In this document: in pieces, positions 37,897 through 51,567 of the stretch
How the letters are laid out: every line of letters starts with the position of its first letter
Numbering within the stretch: position 1 is the stretch's first letter
NCBI GenBank assembly: GCA_025716815.1
Contig: JAIXMN010000003.1
Location: forward strand, 1,240,001 to 1,304,000
Direction: 5' to 3'
Length of the DNA: 64,000 nucleotides
Origin: Dichotomocladium elegans
Lineage: Eukaryota; Mucoromycota; Mucoromycetes; Mucorales; Lichtheimiaceae
Position numbers and translations under genes: made by a program
The notes under the pieces: generated by a model
Seen by the model: only the letters and a program-made list of their open reading frames with translations
Database searches by the model: none
Told to the model about the DNA's origin: nothing

Positions 37897-38674
37897 ATGG
37901 TAAATTTTCGCTTTGCGATCTTCAACGCCATTCGTCCTTTCTCCCGTTCAGCGAGCTGACATGGCTTTGATACGCCATCAATAGGCAGATCAACTTTCTC
38001 AAGACCGTATCGAAGAATACAAGGAGGCATTCCGACTTTTTGACAAAAACAATGACGGCAGCATCTCGGCTACCGAGCTCGGTGTTGTCCTCCGTTCGTT
38101 TGGCATGAACCCAAGCGATGCAGAACTAAAGGATATGGTATGTGTACTACCATTGCGCAATTCTGTTGTTTTCCTGTCTCTCGCTCTTTGAAGCTGCTCT
38201 CCCTTGCAGGAAGAGAAGAACAGAAAAGGAATACAGAAAAAAGCTCCCGTTCCCATCTAAGAAAGGAAGAGCAGAAGTAATTCATGGCACTTTTATTTTT
38301 CGACTTGCTAGATTAATGATGTGGATGCAGATGGCAACGGTACTATTGATTTTGACGAGTTTCTCGGGCTTGTCCAGAATCTAAAGTCGACCAACGAGGC
38401 TGACGACCTCAGAGAAGCATTCAAGTAAGGGAACAAAGGGAACTAGGGATGGGGGCAAGACAAGTAGTATCATGATGACAAACAATTTGTTGATAGGGTG
38501 TTTGACACTGATGGCAACGGCTTGATTGACCGAGAGGAACTACGGAACGTCATGCGATCCCTGAACGAAGAAATTTCAGAGCAAGATCTCACGGCCATGA
38601 TTGAGCAGGCAGACACAGATGGCGACGGACAGATCAGCTTTGACGAATTTAAGGCGATGATGGGATCATCATAA
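37897..38674 (+). CDS. Calmodulin
   Basis: Exons 37897-37899, 37985-38137, 38312-38424 and 38497-38674 give 148 aa. Exon 1 contributes only the ATG; the intron starts immediately after it (ATG|GTAAAT). Four EF-hand loops are visible: [36 protein letters not shown] and [12 protein letters not shown], all with the Asp/Asn and Glu ligands kept. Calmodulin is the cytosolic Ca2+ sensor for kinases, calcineurin and IQ proteins; an IQ-motif protein is encoded at 57.4 kb. The sequence is more diverged from animal calmodulin than most (e.g. [32 protein letters not shown]), so a calmodulin-like paralogue is the alternative. Confidence 0.9.
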
Positions 38675-39334
38675 ATAGATGTGTATAGGGTGTGTGCATT
38701 TACGGTGGGGATGGAGCTCTGGAAGCTATCAATCCTAATCTACCGAACATTCTTAAATTATTTCTTTTTTGCAAGGAGGGAAATTTGGTTATGCATTAGT
38801 ACCATCCGCGTTTATAAAAGTATTTTATCGCGATACGCATTGTCCTTCGATGGGCAGCGTCGATGAATGTGCAGGAAAAGAAATGGCTGAGATCCATACT
38901 TTGAGCCCTGCGGCTGTGTTTCTGAGCATCCCAGTTCGCCACCCCCAGCCCCCAAAGATGGCAAGTTTTAATCCAGGGTTCTGGAGAATTGATAATCGCC
39001 ACACTAGAACCATGATCTTGAAATTGTACAAGCCACATCTCATGTCATATTTTTAGGAATGCTAATCAGGATTACTATTAACTTATTCTTTCTTTGTGGG
39101 TGTTATGCATTATGCGTTGTAAAGCCACGATTTAAACGGTGTAATGTTTCCGATGCAAACATTGCATCCTTCTTTCCTAAAATAGCATTCGACTAACGTA
39201 TGGACGCGATAATACTGTATTTTCACATCAATTGGCTGAGAGATTTTAGTCACCAGAAATATTATCCCTTCCCCAACTCTTTAACTTACCCCGAAGGTAT
39301 CCAGATATGTGCCGGCGATAACCGACACGGAAAA
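38675..39334. other. Intergenic, left flank of the Fanzor-like island
   Basis: 660 bp between calmodulin and the 3' end of the Fanzor-like gene. No gene seen. The right part would contain the 3' flank (and any guide-RNA region or element end), but I could not identify terminal repeats. Confidence 0.4.
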
Positions 39335-41447
39335 TCATCGCTGTTGGCGACCTCGTCCTGGCCCTCTTGGTCTCACCCTTCGCTCGTCGCGCTCTGGTGA
39401 CCTAGCCCTTCTTGCTAGGCGCCTGGCACCACCCGCAGGTGCTCGCCGAAACCTTTCCGGGACCATGCCATCGGCACGAAAACCCCTGAGAATATGTATC
39501 ATATTCAGGCAGGCCGCCATATCACGGTTCCACAATCGCTGCTGAGGAGCGCCCTCTGCCATGCCTACTGTACAGTTTTGATTTGAGCATCTGCACAGAA
39601 TAAGTGACGTTAGATTATCATTATTGTTTTAAACTCTTCCGCGAATAAGGGCTTCATACCGTAGCAGGCCATGACAGATAACGTTTGGATTCTCGGCTCC
39701 TCGATAGGGGCGTGGATTGGGTACCCTCCGGAACGTAGAAAGACTCTCGGTCTCGCACGCGAGGCAGCATCTGCTTGTCTTGAATTCATCAATCAAGTAT
39801 ACATCAACGCGACGTTCGCCTTTCTTGAGAAGTCGTCTGAATCCAACAACGCAGATTGGCTCGTGGTATCGAATGTTCGGGGCAGACCAATTACCCATCA
39901 CAAATACCGCATGGGGGTCAAACTTGTTGATCAGACCGTCCCTCAGCTTTTCATCTGCTCGTTGTTTGTTGATGCACGACGACAGGCGGAGCTTTCGGAA
40001 AAGAGGTTGGGGATCAGCATTATTGGTAGCGGTATTCGCACAGAAGTCCTCGAGAACCTGGGACACTTGGGACCGGACAAGCAGGAAGCGGTCATAATCG
40101 GCACGATCCAAGCTGCGGGAATGCTCGCCAGCCATGCGTGCCTCCGCATGCACGACTTCAGCTTCCTCATTCTTGAGCCTCTGCAACAACCTGAGGTACT
40201 TGTTGGTCTTGCGCACCTTGTCCTGATGAGGTTTGGTGTATCAGAACGTCAGACGGGCACCTCGCTCCGGCCTGGAATTCTCTGAGACGCAGAAAAGGGG
40301 GTCCCTCCTCCCAGGGTCGACGGTGACGCACCTACCAGCAATGCTCTGGTGTTTCTGTGATGTTAGCATGCTGACATAATTGGTCTCATCCTCGACTCCT
40401 CGGTACTTTGCTCCGTATGATGGTCGTTGATTGTTCGTCCTCTTGAAAACAGTGACGCCTACTCCACCGGTATGGATTGTGCCATGGAACTCGATCGTTC
40501 CGCCTTCTTGGGGTCTGAAAGCACGAGAGTTGAGGTCCACAATCTCTCCCCACAGAGCCAAATTCTGGCTGATGTCGTGTCTTGGCCTCTTTAGGATATG
40601 CTGGACAAGAATCGTGGTGTCGATCAGCATATAGCAAGAGGTCCAGGATCGACGAAGAGGGAAACATTGGAAGCTGAGAAGACCATTGCGCTGGAAAACG
40701 TAGGCAAGCTCTGTGAACGGCCGGAAGTGGTTGGCTGAACGCGCCTTGGCGTCGTAGTAGATGCTTTGTTTTTGGAACTGGTACCCTTGGGGGTAAGCAT
40801 CCAAGACCGGTTGGATCTGGTCGAACGCTTGCCTGAGGAAAGCTGGTTCCGCCAGAATGTCATCCCTCCGCACACCTCGGCGGGCAATGGCGAGCTTAAA
40901 GCCTGCGGCATGGCGAGCGATGGTGTCGTAAATATCCTGGCGGATTTGCTCCTCGGTCCAGCCGAGTGCGTCCAGTTCACATCTCCTCACCGCTTTCAGC
41001 ACTTGAATGTTCAGGAGAGCATTCACCGCGCGCCGAAGATGTTGCCCGAACCGCATGTTGATATTGTTGCAGTATGCAACAAACATCTTTTTACCTTCGA
41101 ATGCAGAGCATTGCTGGGAATACTTGAGCTGTGGCCGTTGGTACTGGATGACTTCGAGGTAATCCTCCAAAAACTCGCCGATCAGAACTCGGCACTCGCC
41201 GGAAAACCCCCGGGTTGGAAAGCTCGCTTGTTAGGCATGGAGAACCACACCTCCGAGAAGAACTTTTTGTGCAGGAACTACTGGAGGTTGAAGTCTGGTT
41301 CGCGTTCGCGCTTCCGTAGGAAGATGTACTTGGCGAAGCTGTAGGCACGGGGGTTGTTGCATGGACAACAGCGACCAAATCCATCAACGGTTGGCGGTAG
41401 ACAGGGTTCCAACGGATGCCTCACATAGAGGTCTTGACACCCAACAT
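39335..41447 (-). pseudogene. TnpB/Fanzor-like RuvC nuclease gene, broken
   Basis: Minus strand. N-terminal region with DLVAVVHATT and SFAKYIFLRKR; central ~300-codon frame (41170-40241); RuvC-I TVDPGRRD near 40310; NWSAPN near 39890 where the second acidic motif is expected; a zinc ribbon starting CCLAC near 39775; then a spliced junction giving LLRCSNQNC and RuvC-III LWNRDMAACLNM. The order RuvC-I, zinc ribbon (CxxC...CxxxxC), NRD motif is that of TnpB and its eukaryotic relatives, Fanzors. A 69-nt GTATGA...GCAG intron (39659-39591) splits the zinc ribbon between its two Cys pairs. Breaks: TGA at 41421-41423 just after the first ATG, a frameshift near 41350, TAG at 41278-41280, a frameshift near 41185, and TGA at 40241-40243. 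GC content is higher than the flanks. The copy should be inactive. Confidence 0.75.
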
Positions 41448-42151
41448 ACGGTCAGGGGGCCTGAGGTTGAGTTGAGCAGGGTTTAAGCTCCTCCTCCTGG
41501 TGGGGTTGACCGGTTGTTCCATGTCTTTACCAGCAGAGGGCTGTGGTATTATCTCTTTAGCGCAATATCTTCTAGTCATGCCTTATTCCAAAAGCCTTAC
41601 CGTCTAATGTCGGAATGTGCTTTTGTGTTCTTCGCCGTGGGTGGTATGAGTTGTGTAAGGTTTGAGAGATGTGTAATACGCGTGTGTTTGTAGCGGGTTA
41701 GAATACGCAAGTGGTAAAGAAAACGGCTTGGTCGAATCTCATTATTTTATAGTAAATCAAGGTCCCCTTCCAACACTGCGTGTATGGGGTACTATGAAGT
41801 GCATATCATATGATAGGCTTGTGATGAACATTGATCCGGGCTAGAGAACTTAGCTGGTTTCACATCATTAAGCGTCGATATTCAGAAACTGATGCGATGA
41901 TGAATCCAACATGTGATGAGCATTGATCCATCACTGGTCTTGAAGAGGCCAATGAAAAGAGAGTGCTCTCATTCGATACGTCCTAACAGGATTAAGCACT
42001 TACGTCGCCGTTCTAATAGAATTATTATAAAGGAGATATATTTTATTTTCAGGAATAAACATCATCCTCAAAGCTACTTTTCTAGTTGTCTTTTTCACTA
42101 TTTTCTCTTACCCTTCCATCACACTGTCTACAGGCTGAAACCGAGTCATTT
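41448..42151. other. Intergenic between Fanzor-like and transposase remnants
   Basis: About 700 bp, AT-rich towards 42000-42100. No gene or clear terminal inverted repeat found. Confidence 0.4.
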
Positions 42152-42741
42152 TTAATGATAAGTTGCATTCGTTTTAGATACTTTGAGACCCTCAAGTCTT
42201 GGAAGCAGTTGCGCCATCAGCTGCTTTAGAACAATGGATGGATTCTCATCAATGCATTCTAAAATAATGCTCTTCATTGAGAATTCGCGAACGACCCCTC
42301 GCTTTAGGTTTCTTAAAGACGCTGTCAGGGTCTTTCTCGTACTGTGATGCCAATCGCCGGGCTGAACGAACCTGGATTCCAAACTGTTTTTGTAGCAGCT
42401 GACGCACTCAAAACCTTCTCAAACATCAGTTTGAAAAATCTGATCTTGTCTTGGTCAGTGTACGCTGTGTAACTGCGCTTGATCCCTGCTATTTCATCCG
42501 AATTTCTGTATTCTTTCGCTTGGGGAATGTGTGCGGTAGTATGATCAGAGTTATCTCTGCAAGATATGGTGCGCAGATATTCAGTGTGAGAATAAACGGT
42601 CTGCAGAGAGTACATCTCTTCATCAACGACATGGCCTTGACCATCCTCGTAAAAAAATAGATCGCTCATTTCAGAATGTAAATGGGTAGCTTTTTTGTGC
42701 GACATCTTTCGCCGTGCATGCAACGTTTGCTTTGTCATCAC
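42152..42741 (-). pseudogene. Transposase HTH-domain remnant (Tc1/IS630-like), frameshifted
   Basis: Minus strand. The first frame contains YTDQDKIRFFKLMFEKVLSA, continuing after a frame change as KQFGIQVRSARRLASQYEKD...RGRSRILNEEH, then after a second change as ILECIDENPSIVLKQLMAQL...LEGLKVSKTNATYH and a stop. Reading the three segments in order gives the paired helix-turn-helix region that precedes the DDE domain in Tc1/IS630-type transposases. The DDE catalytic part is absent. At least two frameshifts plus truncation make it a fossil. It lies 0.7 kb upstream of the Fanzor-like gene and on the same strand. Confidence 0.7.
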
Positions 42742-43154
42742 GCGTAAAGATTTCTGGGCAAAACACGATTTCTATTTTTGTTCCTGCGACTTCAGAACTG
42801 GCTGGTACGACTTCGTCAGGCAAAGTTGTCAGCGTCAGTCCAAGAGGGCACGGCGTCGGTAAGGAGGTAACAACGCTAGCCCAAACCACTTACCCTGACA
42901 AGAGGATTTCCGGTGAAACATGCCATCAGCAATCTCTACTTTTTTTTTCAAGTAACACGTTGAGTGAGCAAATGCTAGGTTTCATAAACTACTCTGCTGC
43001 CAAGCTATTTTTCATATTCCGCGAACTGATGGAATGACCCCGCATATCGCGCCAACTTCTATTTTTGGAGATTACATTCGAGGGGCGCGACTTCAATTGC
43101 AAAAAACATTATACGAAGTGCGCTGCTCCCGGAAGTCGAGAAAGAATTCCAAAC

Positions 43155-45288
43155 ATGACATCGATTCCCACAGTTCTAACCATTGCGGGTAGTGATAGCG
43201 GCGGGTAAGCGAAATTGGCACAAGTGTGTCCCATTCCTGCAACTCAACAAGCTTGTCTTCCCCCGCTTTTTTTGTCCTAGCGGTGCAGGCATTCAGGCCG
43301 ATCTCAAAACGTTGACCTCGCTTAATGTGTATGGCACGTCGGTGCTCACATCCTTGACGTCGCAGAATACACTGGGAGTGGACGGTATTCACAATGTACC
43401 GACCGAGTTTGTTCAGAAACAGCTTCAGGCCGTCCTTAACGATATCGGGACAGATGCTATCAAGACAGGCATGCTTTCTTCCTCCGCCATTATCGAGACA
43501 GTTGCTGAGACTTTAAAAAAATACAACCATGACAAGCTGGTTGTTGACCCGGTGATGGTATCAACCAGTGGCTCAAGACTTATGGCAGAGGATGCAGTCG
43601 CGACGTTTATCACCACATTGTTGCCCATAACGACAATCTTGACACCAAACATCCCTGAGGCCGAGGTCTTGCTCGACATGGCACCCGGTACCATCAAGGA
43701 TCTGAAAACAGCACACGACGCTGCCAAACGTATAGCTGAATTGGGTCCCCGCTACGTGCTGCTCAAAGGCGGTCATTTGCCAGTTAAGCTTGAAGGCCGC
43801 GATGAGCAGTGCGTTGTTGACATCCTGTACCACAGCGCTACGGACACAGCTACCGAGATTGTGAATCCTTACCTAAACACAAAAGACACACACGGCACTG
43901 GCTGCACGCTTTCAGCTGCCATTGCTGCAGGACTTGCAAAAGGCCAGGATGGTAAAAATAATGCGGAAGATGCATTTCTGCAAACTCTATGCGTACTCGT
44001 ATTTTGACTTCTCTCTTTTGTACTTGTAACATTAATCAGCGTTGACTGCCGTCACGAATGCTACCTCGTACATCCATGACGCAATCGAGTCGAGTTTTGC
44101 ATCCCTCGGGCAAGGACCCGGTCCGCTCAATCATATGTACAACATTCACAACCGTCCTTACACAGGGTAAAGTACAAAAAAACAAAAAAGAAAGACACCG
44201 GAAAGAACACATATATATTCTATGTACGGAAATCCACTCCAGGAAGCTGATGAATAACACAAATATAGCAAAAGTTATGTCAAGGCTCTCAAGGATGCAT
44301 TGCCTGCGGGCCTGTGGAATCAGTTCATTAACCATCCTTTTGTCCGGGGTATGGCCGATGGTACTTTGCCAAAAGAAAGCTTCATTCACTACATCAAGCA
44401 AGACTATCTCTACCTCCAACACTATGCACGGACCGCCGCACTGGCTGCGTATAAATGTGAGTTTTCGCATCTGCATACGCATGCAGGCTGTATACCTATG
44501 TAACCCCATGTGGTTTTCATACATGATAGCACCTACGATTGACATGGCCGCAAGAAATGCGAAAATCGTGTTACACATACATCATGAATTGCAAATGCAT
44601 GTCAAGGTACAGCATATGGGTTCTGCATTTGCTTCCTCCAGGTTATTTATATATCCAACATAGTACTGTGAAAAATGGGGGATTTCGAAAGAAGAGATAC
44701 TTAGCACGCCGGAGAGTGTATACAATGTAGCCTATACACGCTATGTACTTGACAAAGGTATGACGGTTCATATGGATACTTTTCTTGAGGAAGCAGCCTA
44801 CTCAATTACTCTGGGCCTATGAAGGTGCTACTGGTGACCAATTGGACCTACAGGTGGCCATGGCGCCTTGTCTGCTTGGCTATGGCGAGATCGGTATAAA
44901 TTTAGTCAATGACCCTAATACAAAACGAGGTAAAAGCTGAAATCCGGTTGAACCCATGCGCTTATCTATCTATAAACATATGAGACTCATCACAATGCTG
45001 GTGGATCGTTTAGACGGAAATCCATATTGGACATGGATCCAAAATTACGCAGCTGAGGATTTCCAGGACGCTGTCAAAGCTGGAAAAGGTAGGTGGAATG
45101 CAAACGCTTTTATCGCGTTAGATCTCTCATACATACTATATATCTCCCTCAATACAGAACTTCTTGAGGAACTTGCGCCCCATAACGTATCAACATCGCC
45201 TACTCGTTTTAAGGAGACATGTCAAATTTTTGAGCAGGCGACACGACTAGAGATCAGTTTCTGGGACATGGGTCTCCATTGCAAATAG
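43155..45288 (+). CDS. THI20: Thi20-like HMP/HMP-P kinase fused to TenA
   Basis: Nine exons (43155-43204, 43281-43951, 44040-44166, 44275-44456, 44530-44606, 44664-44757, 44825-44929, 45014-45088, 45158-45288) give 503 aa. N-terminal ThiD-type kinase: IAGSDSGGGAGIQADLKT, KTGMLSS, VDPVMVSTSGSRL, TPNIPEAEVLL, LLKGGH and DTHGTGCTLSAAIAAGLAKG. After a linker (GPLNHMYNIHNRPYTGY) comes a TenA/thiaminase-II domain: LWNQFINHPFVRGMADGTL, HYIKQDYLYLQHYAR and LLGYGEIG. The kinase makes HMP-PP; fungal TenA domains salvage pyrimidine from damaged thiamine. The frame of intron 2 needs the donor at 43952 (GTAAAA); the longer open reading ending LVF and a stop is intronic. It ends 135 bp from the convergent transporter gene. 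Confidence 0.93.
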
Positions 45289-49555: not shown

Positions 49556-49737
49556 GGAGCATCTACTGTACTCTACATATCTAGATATCTTTCTTCCATC
49601 TATTCGCATTGCCATATGCGCGATCTTCTCTCTTTATCACATATTCACTCGCGCACTCACTCAACCTGACAATAAAAAGACCTCGCTTTTTGCATTTCTC
49701 GAACAGAATTTTCTCTCCTTCTTTCTCTTGCTGATTA

Positions 49738-51567
49738 ATGTCCCATAAATTACACGTCGATTATTCACTCTACCTTGTTACTGACAGCGGTCTCGTGCCG
49801 GAAGGAACAACCTTGCTAGAGCAAGTTGAACGCGCGCTAGAGGGGGGGACGACAATTGTGCAGCTGCGCGAAAAGAACCTCGAGACCGGCCCTTTCATTG
49901 CACTCGCTCGCGAGGTCCAAAAACTCACGAAACGGTTCAATGTACCACTGATCATCAATGACCGGATCGATGTGGCCCTGGCGATTGACGCCGATGGTGT
50001 TCATGTTGGTCAAGATGACATGCCGATGACCCAGGCACGCCAGATCCTCGGTCCAAAAAAGATTATTGGCGTGTCGGTCAATACAATTACTGAAGCAGAG
50101 GAGGCGATCCGCGCCGGTGCAGATTACCTTGGTGTGGGTGCTGTATGGGACACAAACACAAAAAAGTTGACCAACAACACGCTTGGCATCGATGGCGTCA
50201 AAGGTGAGTCAATATCCTTTTCGCTATCTCCCGCTCTCCTTTTTTTTGCATCGGCTGGAAACTTTGAGACATAGCCATCCTGGATGCGGTCAGTCCCATT
50301 CCGTCAGTGGCCATTGGCGGCGTGAAACTCGAGAATGCGCTTGATCTCTTGGAGGGTGCGCCTAAGCTGAATGGTCTTGCCGTTGTATCGGCTATTATTG
50401 GCTCCCCCGACCCTGCAAAAACATGCCAGGAATTTCAGCAGATCATCCAGAGCTCCCTCGCTGCTAACAATAGCAAATCAGGAGCTCCAAAATCAGCAGT
50501 CGATTCTGCCCTACAGTTTGCGGTCCAAGCAGCTATTCGTCTTCGCGAGATCGGACCCTTGATCCACCACATCACAAGCAAGTTTTTTTTTTGCTTTTTT
50601 TAACCAAAGAGCGGAAAGGGACAGGGACGGGAAGGGGAAGGGGAAGGGGGCATCTCAGGAAAAACCTTGTGTGTGCAGTCTGACAGTACAATGTTGGGAT
50701 AGACTACGTTGTCATCAATGACAACGCCAACGCAACACTTGCTGTCGGCGCCTCACCCTTCATGTCAACCAAATTTGAAGAACTTGAGGATGTGGCCAAG
50801 ATGAATGGCGCCATGGTACTTAACATGGGAACTCTCGATGACATCCAGACCATGATTGCGGCCTCGAAGGCCAACGCAGCCCGGGGCAATCCAGTCATTT
50901 TTGACCCAGTTGGGGCAGGAGCAACTGAATTTCGCAAGACGACTACCCAGCGCTTCTTGCGCGAATGTGATTTGACGGTTATCAAGGGTAACGGTGCGGA
51001 GATCTTGTCTATCGCTGGCCGTGGCGGAGCATCACGTGGCGTGGATTCGATAGGCGATAATGGTGGCGAGGCCAATGCGGCGATGGCGGTTAAGGAATTA
51101 GCCGAGAAGCAAGGCTGCGTGGTTGCCATGACGGGCCCCATCGATTACGTGTCCGATGGCAAGCGGGTGTTTGCAATTGAGAACGGACATTCGCTACTGC
51201 CTTGTATCACCGGAAGTGGATGCATGGTTTCATCCATCGTTGGGTGCTTTACAGCGGGTAAGCAATGAAACGAATGAATATGTTAGAAGCGTCTTGACAT
51301 CAAATATGTTCTTTTTTTTAAGCAAACCGAAACGACTACCTCTTGGCAACCGTTGCTGCGTAAGTAACTTAACATGCAAGGGGGAATTTCGAACTCACAC
51401 ACTCTCAACATAGAATCCTTACTGTAACAATTGCGTCCGAGCTTGCGGTCAAGCATGGCGACGTCAGAGGCCCTGGTACTTTCCGCTCGGCATTGATTGA
51501 CGAGCTTTATAAGGTTACTTGTAACCCACAACTGATTGCAGAGCATGCCAAGCTCCGAGCCCTTTAA
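49738..51567 (+). CDS. THI6: Thi6-like thiamine-phosphate synthase / hydroxyethylthiazole kinase
   Basis: Five exons (49738-50203, 50275-50577, 50703-51257, 51323-51359, 51414-51567) give 504 aa. The N-terminal TMP synthase shows TTIVQLREKN, LIINDRIDVALAIDADGVHV and GADYLGVGAVWDTNTK; the C-terminal ThiM-type kinase shows HHITNYVVINDNANATLAVG, FDPVGAGAT, IKGNGAEI and ITGSGCMVSS. It couples HMP-PP (product of the Thi20-like enzyme nearby) with phosphorylated thiazole to give thiamine phosphate. The gene lies 4.4 kb from the Thi20-like gene. Intron 2 uses a GC donor (GCAAGT at 50578), required to make the invariant HHITNYVV junction. No TPP-riboswitch core was seen by eye in its introns or leader. 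Confidence 0.95.

Follow-up and report, generated by a model that had tools for sequence, protein, structure and literature searches.

Fanzors are eukaryotic RNA-guided DNA-cutting enzymes. A locus on the minus strand of a 64,000-nucleotide stretch of the Dichotomocladium elegans genome (contig JAIXMN010000003.1; here, the window) was predicted from its motifs to be the remains of a TnpB/Fanzor-like nuclease gene. This raises the question of what the locus once encoded and what carried such a gene into a fungal chromosome. We compared the conceptual translation with proteins of known structure in the PDB by phmmer. The segment at 40244 to 41230 matched Parasitella parasitica Fanzor1 (PpFz1, PDB 9cf0) with an E value of 6.3e-52 and SpuFz1 from Spizellomyces punctatus (8gkh) with an E value of 7.7e-14. 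The segment at 39632 to 40240 matched the same two proteins at 2.7e-28 and 4.5e-13, respectively. These E values for both main segments exclude chance similarity, and both of the solved Fanzors matched are fungal. An open relative from the same genome (family B, described below) matched PpFz1 at 1.6e-119. The HMM search proposed along with the prediction gave no significant Pfam or NCBIfam match for the window pieces, and no TnpB profile in these libraries passed its cut-off with a window piece or the open relative; the homology came instead from phmmer against the PDB. The Pfam profile Cas12f1-like_TNB scored 0.15 with the window piece and 0.022 with the open relative, and NCBIfam guided_TnpB scored 0.0017 with the open relative. 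Thus, a profile search in those libraries alone misses the locus. The predicted Fanzor-like identity is nevertheless borne out and, from the matches to PpFz1 and SpuFz1, can be narrowed to Fanzor1. By this homology, the window locus is a decayed Fanzor1 gene on the minus strand, and the window copy is a pseudogene, i.e., a dead copy, of its Fanzor1 family.

The motifs lie where the prediction had placed them: RuvC-I as VDPGRRD, the zinc ribbon as C-x2-C ... C-x4-C, and RuvC-III as NRD. The locus also fits the published Fanzor/TnpB pattern, D-X(125,275)-[TS][TS]-X-X-C4-X(5,50)-RD (PMC3627910), with 179 residues from D to TS and 15 from the last Cys to RD. The metal ligands reported for SpuFz1 are D383, N385, E541, and D606 (PMC10432273). 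Using SpuFz1 chain numbering with a fusion offset of 394 derived from the alignments, we found counterparts of D383 in the Asp of VDPGRRD (40316 to 40318, minus strand), of E541 in the Glu of LIDEF (39785 to 39787, minus strand), and of D606 in the Asp of NRD (39521 to 39523, minus strand). The N385 position is Gly in the window locus, as it is in PpFz1. Thus, by alignment the catalytic D, E, and D are all present, and the solved PpFz1 and SpuFz1 structures lead one to expect that they would meet in an intact relative. The original prediction had read NWS as an unusual residue at the second acidic position, and this was wrong: PpFz1 also has GNWSAPN, so NWS is ordinary in this branch and is no sign of a lost acid, and the catalytic Glu is that of LIDEF.

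The gene is split and broken. Exon 1 (39660 to 41522, minus strand), which is delimited by tblastn with the open relative and by the PDB matches, is followed by a 69-nt GT-AG intron (39591 to 39659, minus strand) of the form GT...CTAAC...CAG, with CTAAC lying ahead of the 3' end. Splicing joins CHGLLR to CSNQNC, and the counterpart in PpFz1 is HGLLRC. Exon 2 (39335 to 39590, minus strand) encodes the second half of the zinc ribbon, the RuvC-III NRD, a basic tail, and the stop codon; it matched PpFz1 at 1.1e-4 (phmmer), with CxxxxC and LWNRD aligned. The count is therefore of at least one intron and at least two exons within 39335 to 41522 of the window. When the first-exon frame of the open relative was compared with the locus by tblastn, three main matches appeared in frames 2, 1, and 3 with one stop each, and a fourth match of 21 amino acids extended into the intron. 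The three main matches amount to three nonsense codons and two frame changes. Both the intron and this degree of decay had been foreseen.

The prediction also implied intact relatives, and comparison with the host genome revealed near-identical open copies and shared element ends. The 329-aa segment of the window copy (L001) has at least 124 scored matches in its own 39.4-Mb genome, some of which are pieces of one gene; the genome searches scored 122 of 565 and 72 of 768 candidates. Family A relatives (L002 to L012) are 77 to 92% identical to the window segment. Two of these, L002 (92% identity over the 329-aa part) and L003 (91%), have open frames of 648 and 649 aa, respectively. Family B is 53% identical and includes ten copies with equal score and 639-aa open frames. 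Compared with L013 over a shared 3.3 to 3.7 kb, 14 of 16 B copies are 98 to 99.6% identical, and the remaining two are 97.9% and 95.0% identical. Over the family A core, mean dN was 0.031 and mean dS 0.092, a ratio of 0.33 (36 pairs among 9 of 12 copies, some of them decayed); over the family B core, these values were 0.0055 and 0.028, a ratio of 0.19 (8 of 17 copies, 28 pairs). The core dN/dS of L002 against L003, L004, L005, and L009 was 0.15 to 0.21, with one stop in L005, and that of the window copy against eight others was 0.29 to 0.63. By these ratios, the Fanzor gene has been kept functional during its spread, and the window copy is relaxed. L066, L070, L073, and L094 represent one insertion with an identical 60-base flank near the ends of four contigs (C33, C36, C39, and C121), probably in duplicated chromosome ends. 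The family A copy L003/L151 (C40) and the family B copy L024 (C37) lie in or beside other mariner elements and are probably nested insertions.

What spread these copies? The span first given for the locus, 39335 to 41447, proved too small. Element ends, derived by comparing copies together with their upstream DNA, place the window Fanzor1 gene inside what is a damaged Tc1/mariner element spanning about 39215 to 42815. The element starts with GAAAATACAG at 39215, next to a TA at 39213 to 39214, and this border (GAAAATACAG, TA, then TTATCG) aligns with the right ends of relatives. Upstream of the Fanzor gene lies the N-terminal remnant of a Tc1/mariner transposase (42124 to 42771, minus strand), recognized by its DNA identity to the region upstream of the family A copy on C79 (83% over 663 columns and 92% over 48 columns). 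The C79 remnant is a 227-aa ORF that matches DDE_3 at 9.7e-6 and HTH_32 at 4.8e-5, both below curated cut-offs. Beyond it is the left terminal region (42772 to 42815, minus strand), where the homology of relatives ends at 42813 to 42818; the outermost bases of the inverted repeat are gone. The family B element runs for about 3.95 kb from TA and CACCATTTTTCAAAATC through GAAAATAAAG and TA. Its ends form a candidate terminal inverted repeat that is imperfect, reading inward as CACCATTTTTCAAAATC on the left and CTTTATTTTCAAAAAT on the right, and the window copy lacks this left end. The right-end motif of the relatives occurs at 501 sites genome-wide versus 2 in the reversed control. TA was present at 60 of 60 left ends and at 17 of 17 right ends, and later right-end searches had TA built into the pattern. 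A search for empty insertion sites as proof of TA duplication found none. A 3-bp TAT duplication, an idea that came from the constant bases beside TA, was rejected; it is contradicted by the family A left ends, which have CAT rather than TAT, and by right ends without a scored Fanzor. In the nested insertion on C40, an alternative reading puts TA outside a right end that finishes in AAAGTA, so the exact element border is uncertain by 2 bases.

Transposase relatives are numerous, with at least 151 matches counted in the genome. Two open frames of 475 aa, 99.4% alike in DNA, encode intact-looking transposases. One of them matches DDE_3 at 1.8e-30 and NCBIfam IS630 at 3.3e-48, both above cut-offs, and its second D lies 34 residues from the E by hand count. 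These profile matches identify the element as being of the Tc1/mariner-IS630 kind. In the tandem copies B13 and A2, the transposase is truncated. On C31, a dense tandem repeat (L105:2149-2984) lies 3' of an open 452-aa transposase. Within the window element, between the transposase remnant and the Fanzor gene, about 42031 to 42052 (minus strand) holds a right-end-like stretch, GTTTATTCCTGAAAATAAAATA, a weak match with four edits allowed; it may be the trace of an old fusion of two elements.

These ends bear on whether the locus could instead be a domesticated host gene that decayed recently and was never a transposon passenger. Its neighbors, a calmodulin-like gene on one side and a phosphomethylpyrimidine kinase gene on the other, fit such a history. 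However, near-identical copies at many places, with common ends, TA, and a transposase remnant inside the same ends, speak so strongly against domestication that we consider it highly improbable. As for the neighborhood, the EF-hand pair of the calmodulin-like gene (38471 to 38671, plus strand) adjoins the element, and the phosphomethylpyrimidine kinase piece (43180 to 44004, plus strand) lies on its far side. The latter is followed by pieces of thiamine monophosphate synthase and hydroxyethylthiazole kinase (49735 to 50271 and 50684 to 51265, plus strand). These three thiamine-pathway pieces all fall within 8 kb and have a piece of a DEAD-box helicase among them.

The part of the element that follows the Fanzor stop codon (39215 to 39335, minus strand) is common to families A, B, C, and D. 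Besides the right end of the transposon, it holds a likely omega-RNA, predicted from its position and a conserved hairpin. The SpuFz1 omega-RNA is reported to sit between the stop codon and the right repeat (PMC10432273), and Fanzor1 omega-RNAs are reported to have a first stem-loop of 7 bp (PMC11423790). At 39309 to 39328 (minus strand), we found a 7-bp hairpin with the loop UUAUCG, a candidate for this first stem-loop (SL1). Its stems are GUGUCGG/CCGGCAC, GCGUCAG/CUGACGC, and GUCCCGG/CCGGGAC in families A, B, and C, all with the loop UUAUCG, and GCCAUUG/CAAUGGU in family D. Over 18 sequences, 98.4% of cells are paired, and in five of the seven pairs both bases vary around a loop that is nearly fixed; these sequences represent four families, and so few independent changes, and the structure was read off the same sequences. 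When the partner strand was slid by 1 to 3 columns as a control, at most 57% of cells were paired. Rfam gave no match in 38500 to 43000 of the window up to an E of 1, and the folding energy of whole 3' segments was unremarkable (z of about -1.2 and -0.9 versus mononucleotide shuffles).

A core pattern built for the B and C versions of the segment occurs at 115 sites, and one for the A version occurs at 15 sites, including the window copy; neither has any site in the reversed control. Among the 100 B/C sites listed, 55 are B type. A scored Fanzor lies upstream in the same orientation at 48 of these and on the opposite strand at 1, and 6 have none, where none means no Fanzor among the scored matches within 4 to 6 kb. 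The 45 C-type sites are distributed differently: 1 has a scored Fanzor on the same strand, 9 have one on the opposite strand, and 35 have none within 5 kb. Six of the 15 A-type sites also lack a scored Fanzor (assessed by eye), and at four A-type sites without one (on C31, C35, C44, and C70), the position about 120 bp upstream is taken by a transposase match. Thus, some elements seem to carry a candidate guide RNA alone, with no Fanzor detected, much like the ghost loci of S. punctatus, which are described as omega-RNA elements without Fanzor (PMC10432273).

The same distribution can be read another way: the conserved right-end segment could be a mere subterminal transposase-binding region that encodes no guide RNA, and transposase binding would then keep it in elements without Fanzor, such as the 35 C-type ones. 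Part of the segment does consist of AT-rich repeats beside the end. We dropped the greater conservation of the right end over the left as proof of RNA function, since elements without a scored Fanzor share the right end. However, DNA-binding sites need no paired changes of the kind seen in five of seven hairpin pairs around a nearly fixed loop, and both the length of the stem and the placement of the segment agree with what is published for Fanzor1 omega-RNAs. We therefore regard a purely transposase-binding segment as unlikely and favor a candidate omega-RNA.

Two features of this candidate RNA differ among families. The first is its orientation relative to the nuclease gene: in 9 of the 45 listed C-type elements and in E57 (on C57), the reading direction of the Fanzor gene leads away from the omega-RNA segment. 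E57 has an open Fanzor first-exon frame as well as an open transposase. With the gene inverted, Fanzor and the candidate omega-RNA would be transcribed apart. We found no mention of this architecture in the consulted passages of the Fanzor papers cited here, and we do not claim that it is unpublished. The second is a possible pairing of the loop UUAUC with a downstream GAUAA, which has 5 pairs in B and C, 4 in A, and 3 in D. Overall, 93.3% of cells are paired, and no pair changes on both sides; of the five pairs, A has lost one and D two. A loop-tail pseudoknot is thus only a suggestion. If kept, it would matter, since Fanzor1 RNAs are reported to have apparently lost a conserved pseudoknot (PMC10711439) and the SpuFz1 RNA to lack it (PMC10432273).

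We then considered whether the insertion sites themselves carry information about the nuclease. Left flanks were read at 60 of 143 sites, those with 0 or 1 mismatch, and are given as four-base strings that include the TA. The B-type left ends linked to Fanzor read TATA in 32 of 32 cases, plus two more B-like ends, and the family A left ends found read CATA in 10 of 10. The 28 left ends without a linked Fanzor comprised 20 TATA, 4 TGTA (one duplicated flank), 3 CATA, and 1 GATA. TATA thus makes up 20 of 28 ends without a scored Fanzor, or 20 of 25 when the four identical flanks are counted once, compared with 32 of 32, a modest difference (P = 0.013). Among 20 further places, one was the E57 flank and the other 19 were assessed for left ends. 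Six of the seven family A places yielded their left end; B-like left ends were intact in L163 and L164, altered or damaged in L159, L161, and L162, and not found in L160 and L165; and none was found in the five more distant copies, L166 to L170. The flanks are constant within a family, as would be expected for a target-adjacent motif (TAM), and their simplest reading is a predicted TAM of CATA for family A and TATA for family B, with the right flank as the guide. For SpuFz1, a conserved CA ahead of the left repeat and a TAM of CATA are reported (PMC10432273). The PpFz1 TAM is reported as ATN, and ATA at the left end would satisfy it as well.

The left-end bases could also reflect the site preference of the transposase, as ends without a scored Fanzor are also mostly TATA. 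In addition, three of four transposase-centered copies have a recognizable left end, and all three of these read CATA. If integration specificity fixed the bases, they would say nothing about the Fanzor TAM. However, a preference for a palindrome should leave its mark at either end, and here the bias is confined to the left: in 20 hand-chosen right ends that lack a scored Fanzor, TA is followed by A in 7, T in 7, and C in 6. Furthermore, SpuFz1 is reported to combine a conserved CA with a CATA TAM in just this way. We give integration specificity slightly less than an even chance of being the whole explanation. The right ends of elements that carry Fanzor add a further observation. There, TA is followed by T in 36 of 39 tandem Fanzor elements versus 8 of 26 others (Fisher P = 2.4e-7); in the sample hand-chosen from the 100 listed among 501 right-end sites, taken alone, T follows in 9 of 12 versus 8 of 26 (P = 0.016). 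Sorted by RNA type, T follows TA at all 24 B right ends read, at 9 of 11 distinct A ends, and at 1 of 7 C ends, where the base is mostly A (5 of 7). A simple TAM model does not predict this base, T in B and mostly A in C.

Taking these results together, we hold with considerable confidence that the window contains a dead copy of a Tc1/mariner element that carried Fanzor1 and a predicted omega-RNA gene, and that living copies would work as follows. The mariner transposase, supplied in cis or in trans by relatives, would move the element to TA sites in a CATA or TATA context. The omega-RNA gene would occupy the stretch from the Fanzor stop codon to the right end, and its transcript would take its guide from the chromosomal DNA that flanks the element on the right. 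In complex with this RNA, Fanzor would recognize the same site wherever it is unoccupied and cut it, with CATA or TATA as the TAM and the right flank as the target. Repair of the cut empty site from an occupied copy would restore the element or spread it. The protein homology, gene anatomy, element ends with TA, transposase relatives, covarying hairpin, and fixed left-end bases in this scheme are seen in the sequences themselves; expression of the RNA, use of the guide, cleavage, and the restoring of copies are inferred. More tentatively, and in our view rather doubtfully, the genome may house a wider Fanzor1-mariner economy in which omega-RNAs form a large common pool that several Fanzor families use in trans. 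Many of these RNAs would come from elements with no detected Fanzor and some from elements where inversion of the Fanzor gene makes the omega-RNA a separate, divergent unit; in this reading, the B and C omega-RNAs would keep a UUAUC-GAUAA pseudoknot.

Among solved relatives, PpFz1 (PDB 9cf0 to 9cf3) is the best over most of the protein, and GNWSAPN and DPGRRD are common to both. The family B relative lacks about 93 residues of PpFz1 (a gap between chain positions 1001 and 1095), and, judging by location, the missing part would be the RuvC insertion of PpFz1, which is reported to bind cyclophilin. The element resembles SPu-1, the SpuFz1 element, in its Fanzor1, candidate inverted repeats, TA, CA before the left end, predicted CATA TAM, predicted omega-RNA placement, and ghost elements. 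No transposase is reported to have been found inside the ends of SPu-1, whereas here transposase and Fanzor share ends; moreover, at least four predicted omega-RNA families coexist here. Mariner elements that had captured Fanzor1, flanked by TA at either end and in some cases with a transposase, were reported in 2013, in a study that also lists Fanzor1 families for Mucor and Rhizopus (PMC3627910). PGv-1 and PUl-1 (Bao and Jurka 2013) combine a mariner transposase and Fanzor1 in one element with TA at both ends; the elements here differ in the truncated transposase of the tandem copies and in the inverted-Fanzor architecture. Bacterial TnpB shares the order of RuvC and zinc ribbon, but no TnpB profile matched above cut-off here. 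Thus, mariner capture (2013) and ghost elements and a conserved CA beside the left end (2023) were already known from these sources, and what appears new is the multifamily Fanzor-mariner system, the inverted-gene architecture, and the predicted TAMs and guide RNAs.

These findings bear on why eukaryotic transposons keep an RNA-guided nuclease. In the D. elegans genome, recent and near-identical Fanzor copies have clear ends, their mariner family includes open transposases, the RNA segment also occurs in elements with no detected Fanzor, and the left flanks are family specific. From such copies, reading the TAM and omega-RNA off insertion sites would be directly testable, as would the ideas that Fanzor may act in trans on ghost elements and that it may help a cut-and-paste transposon hold its place.
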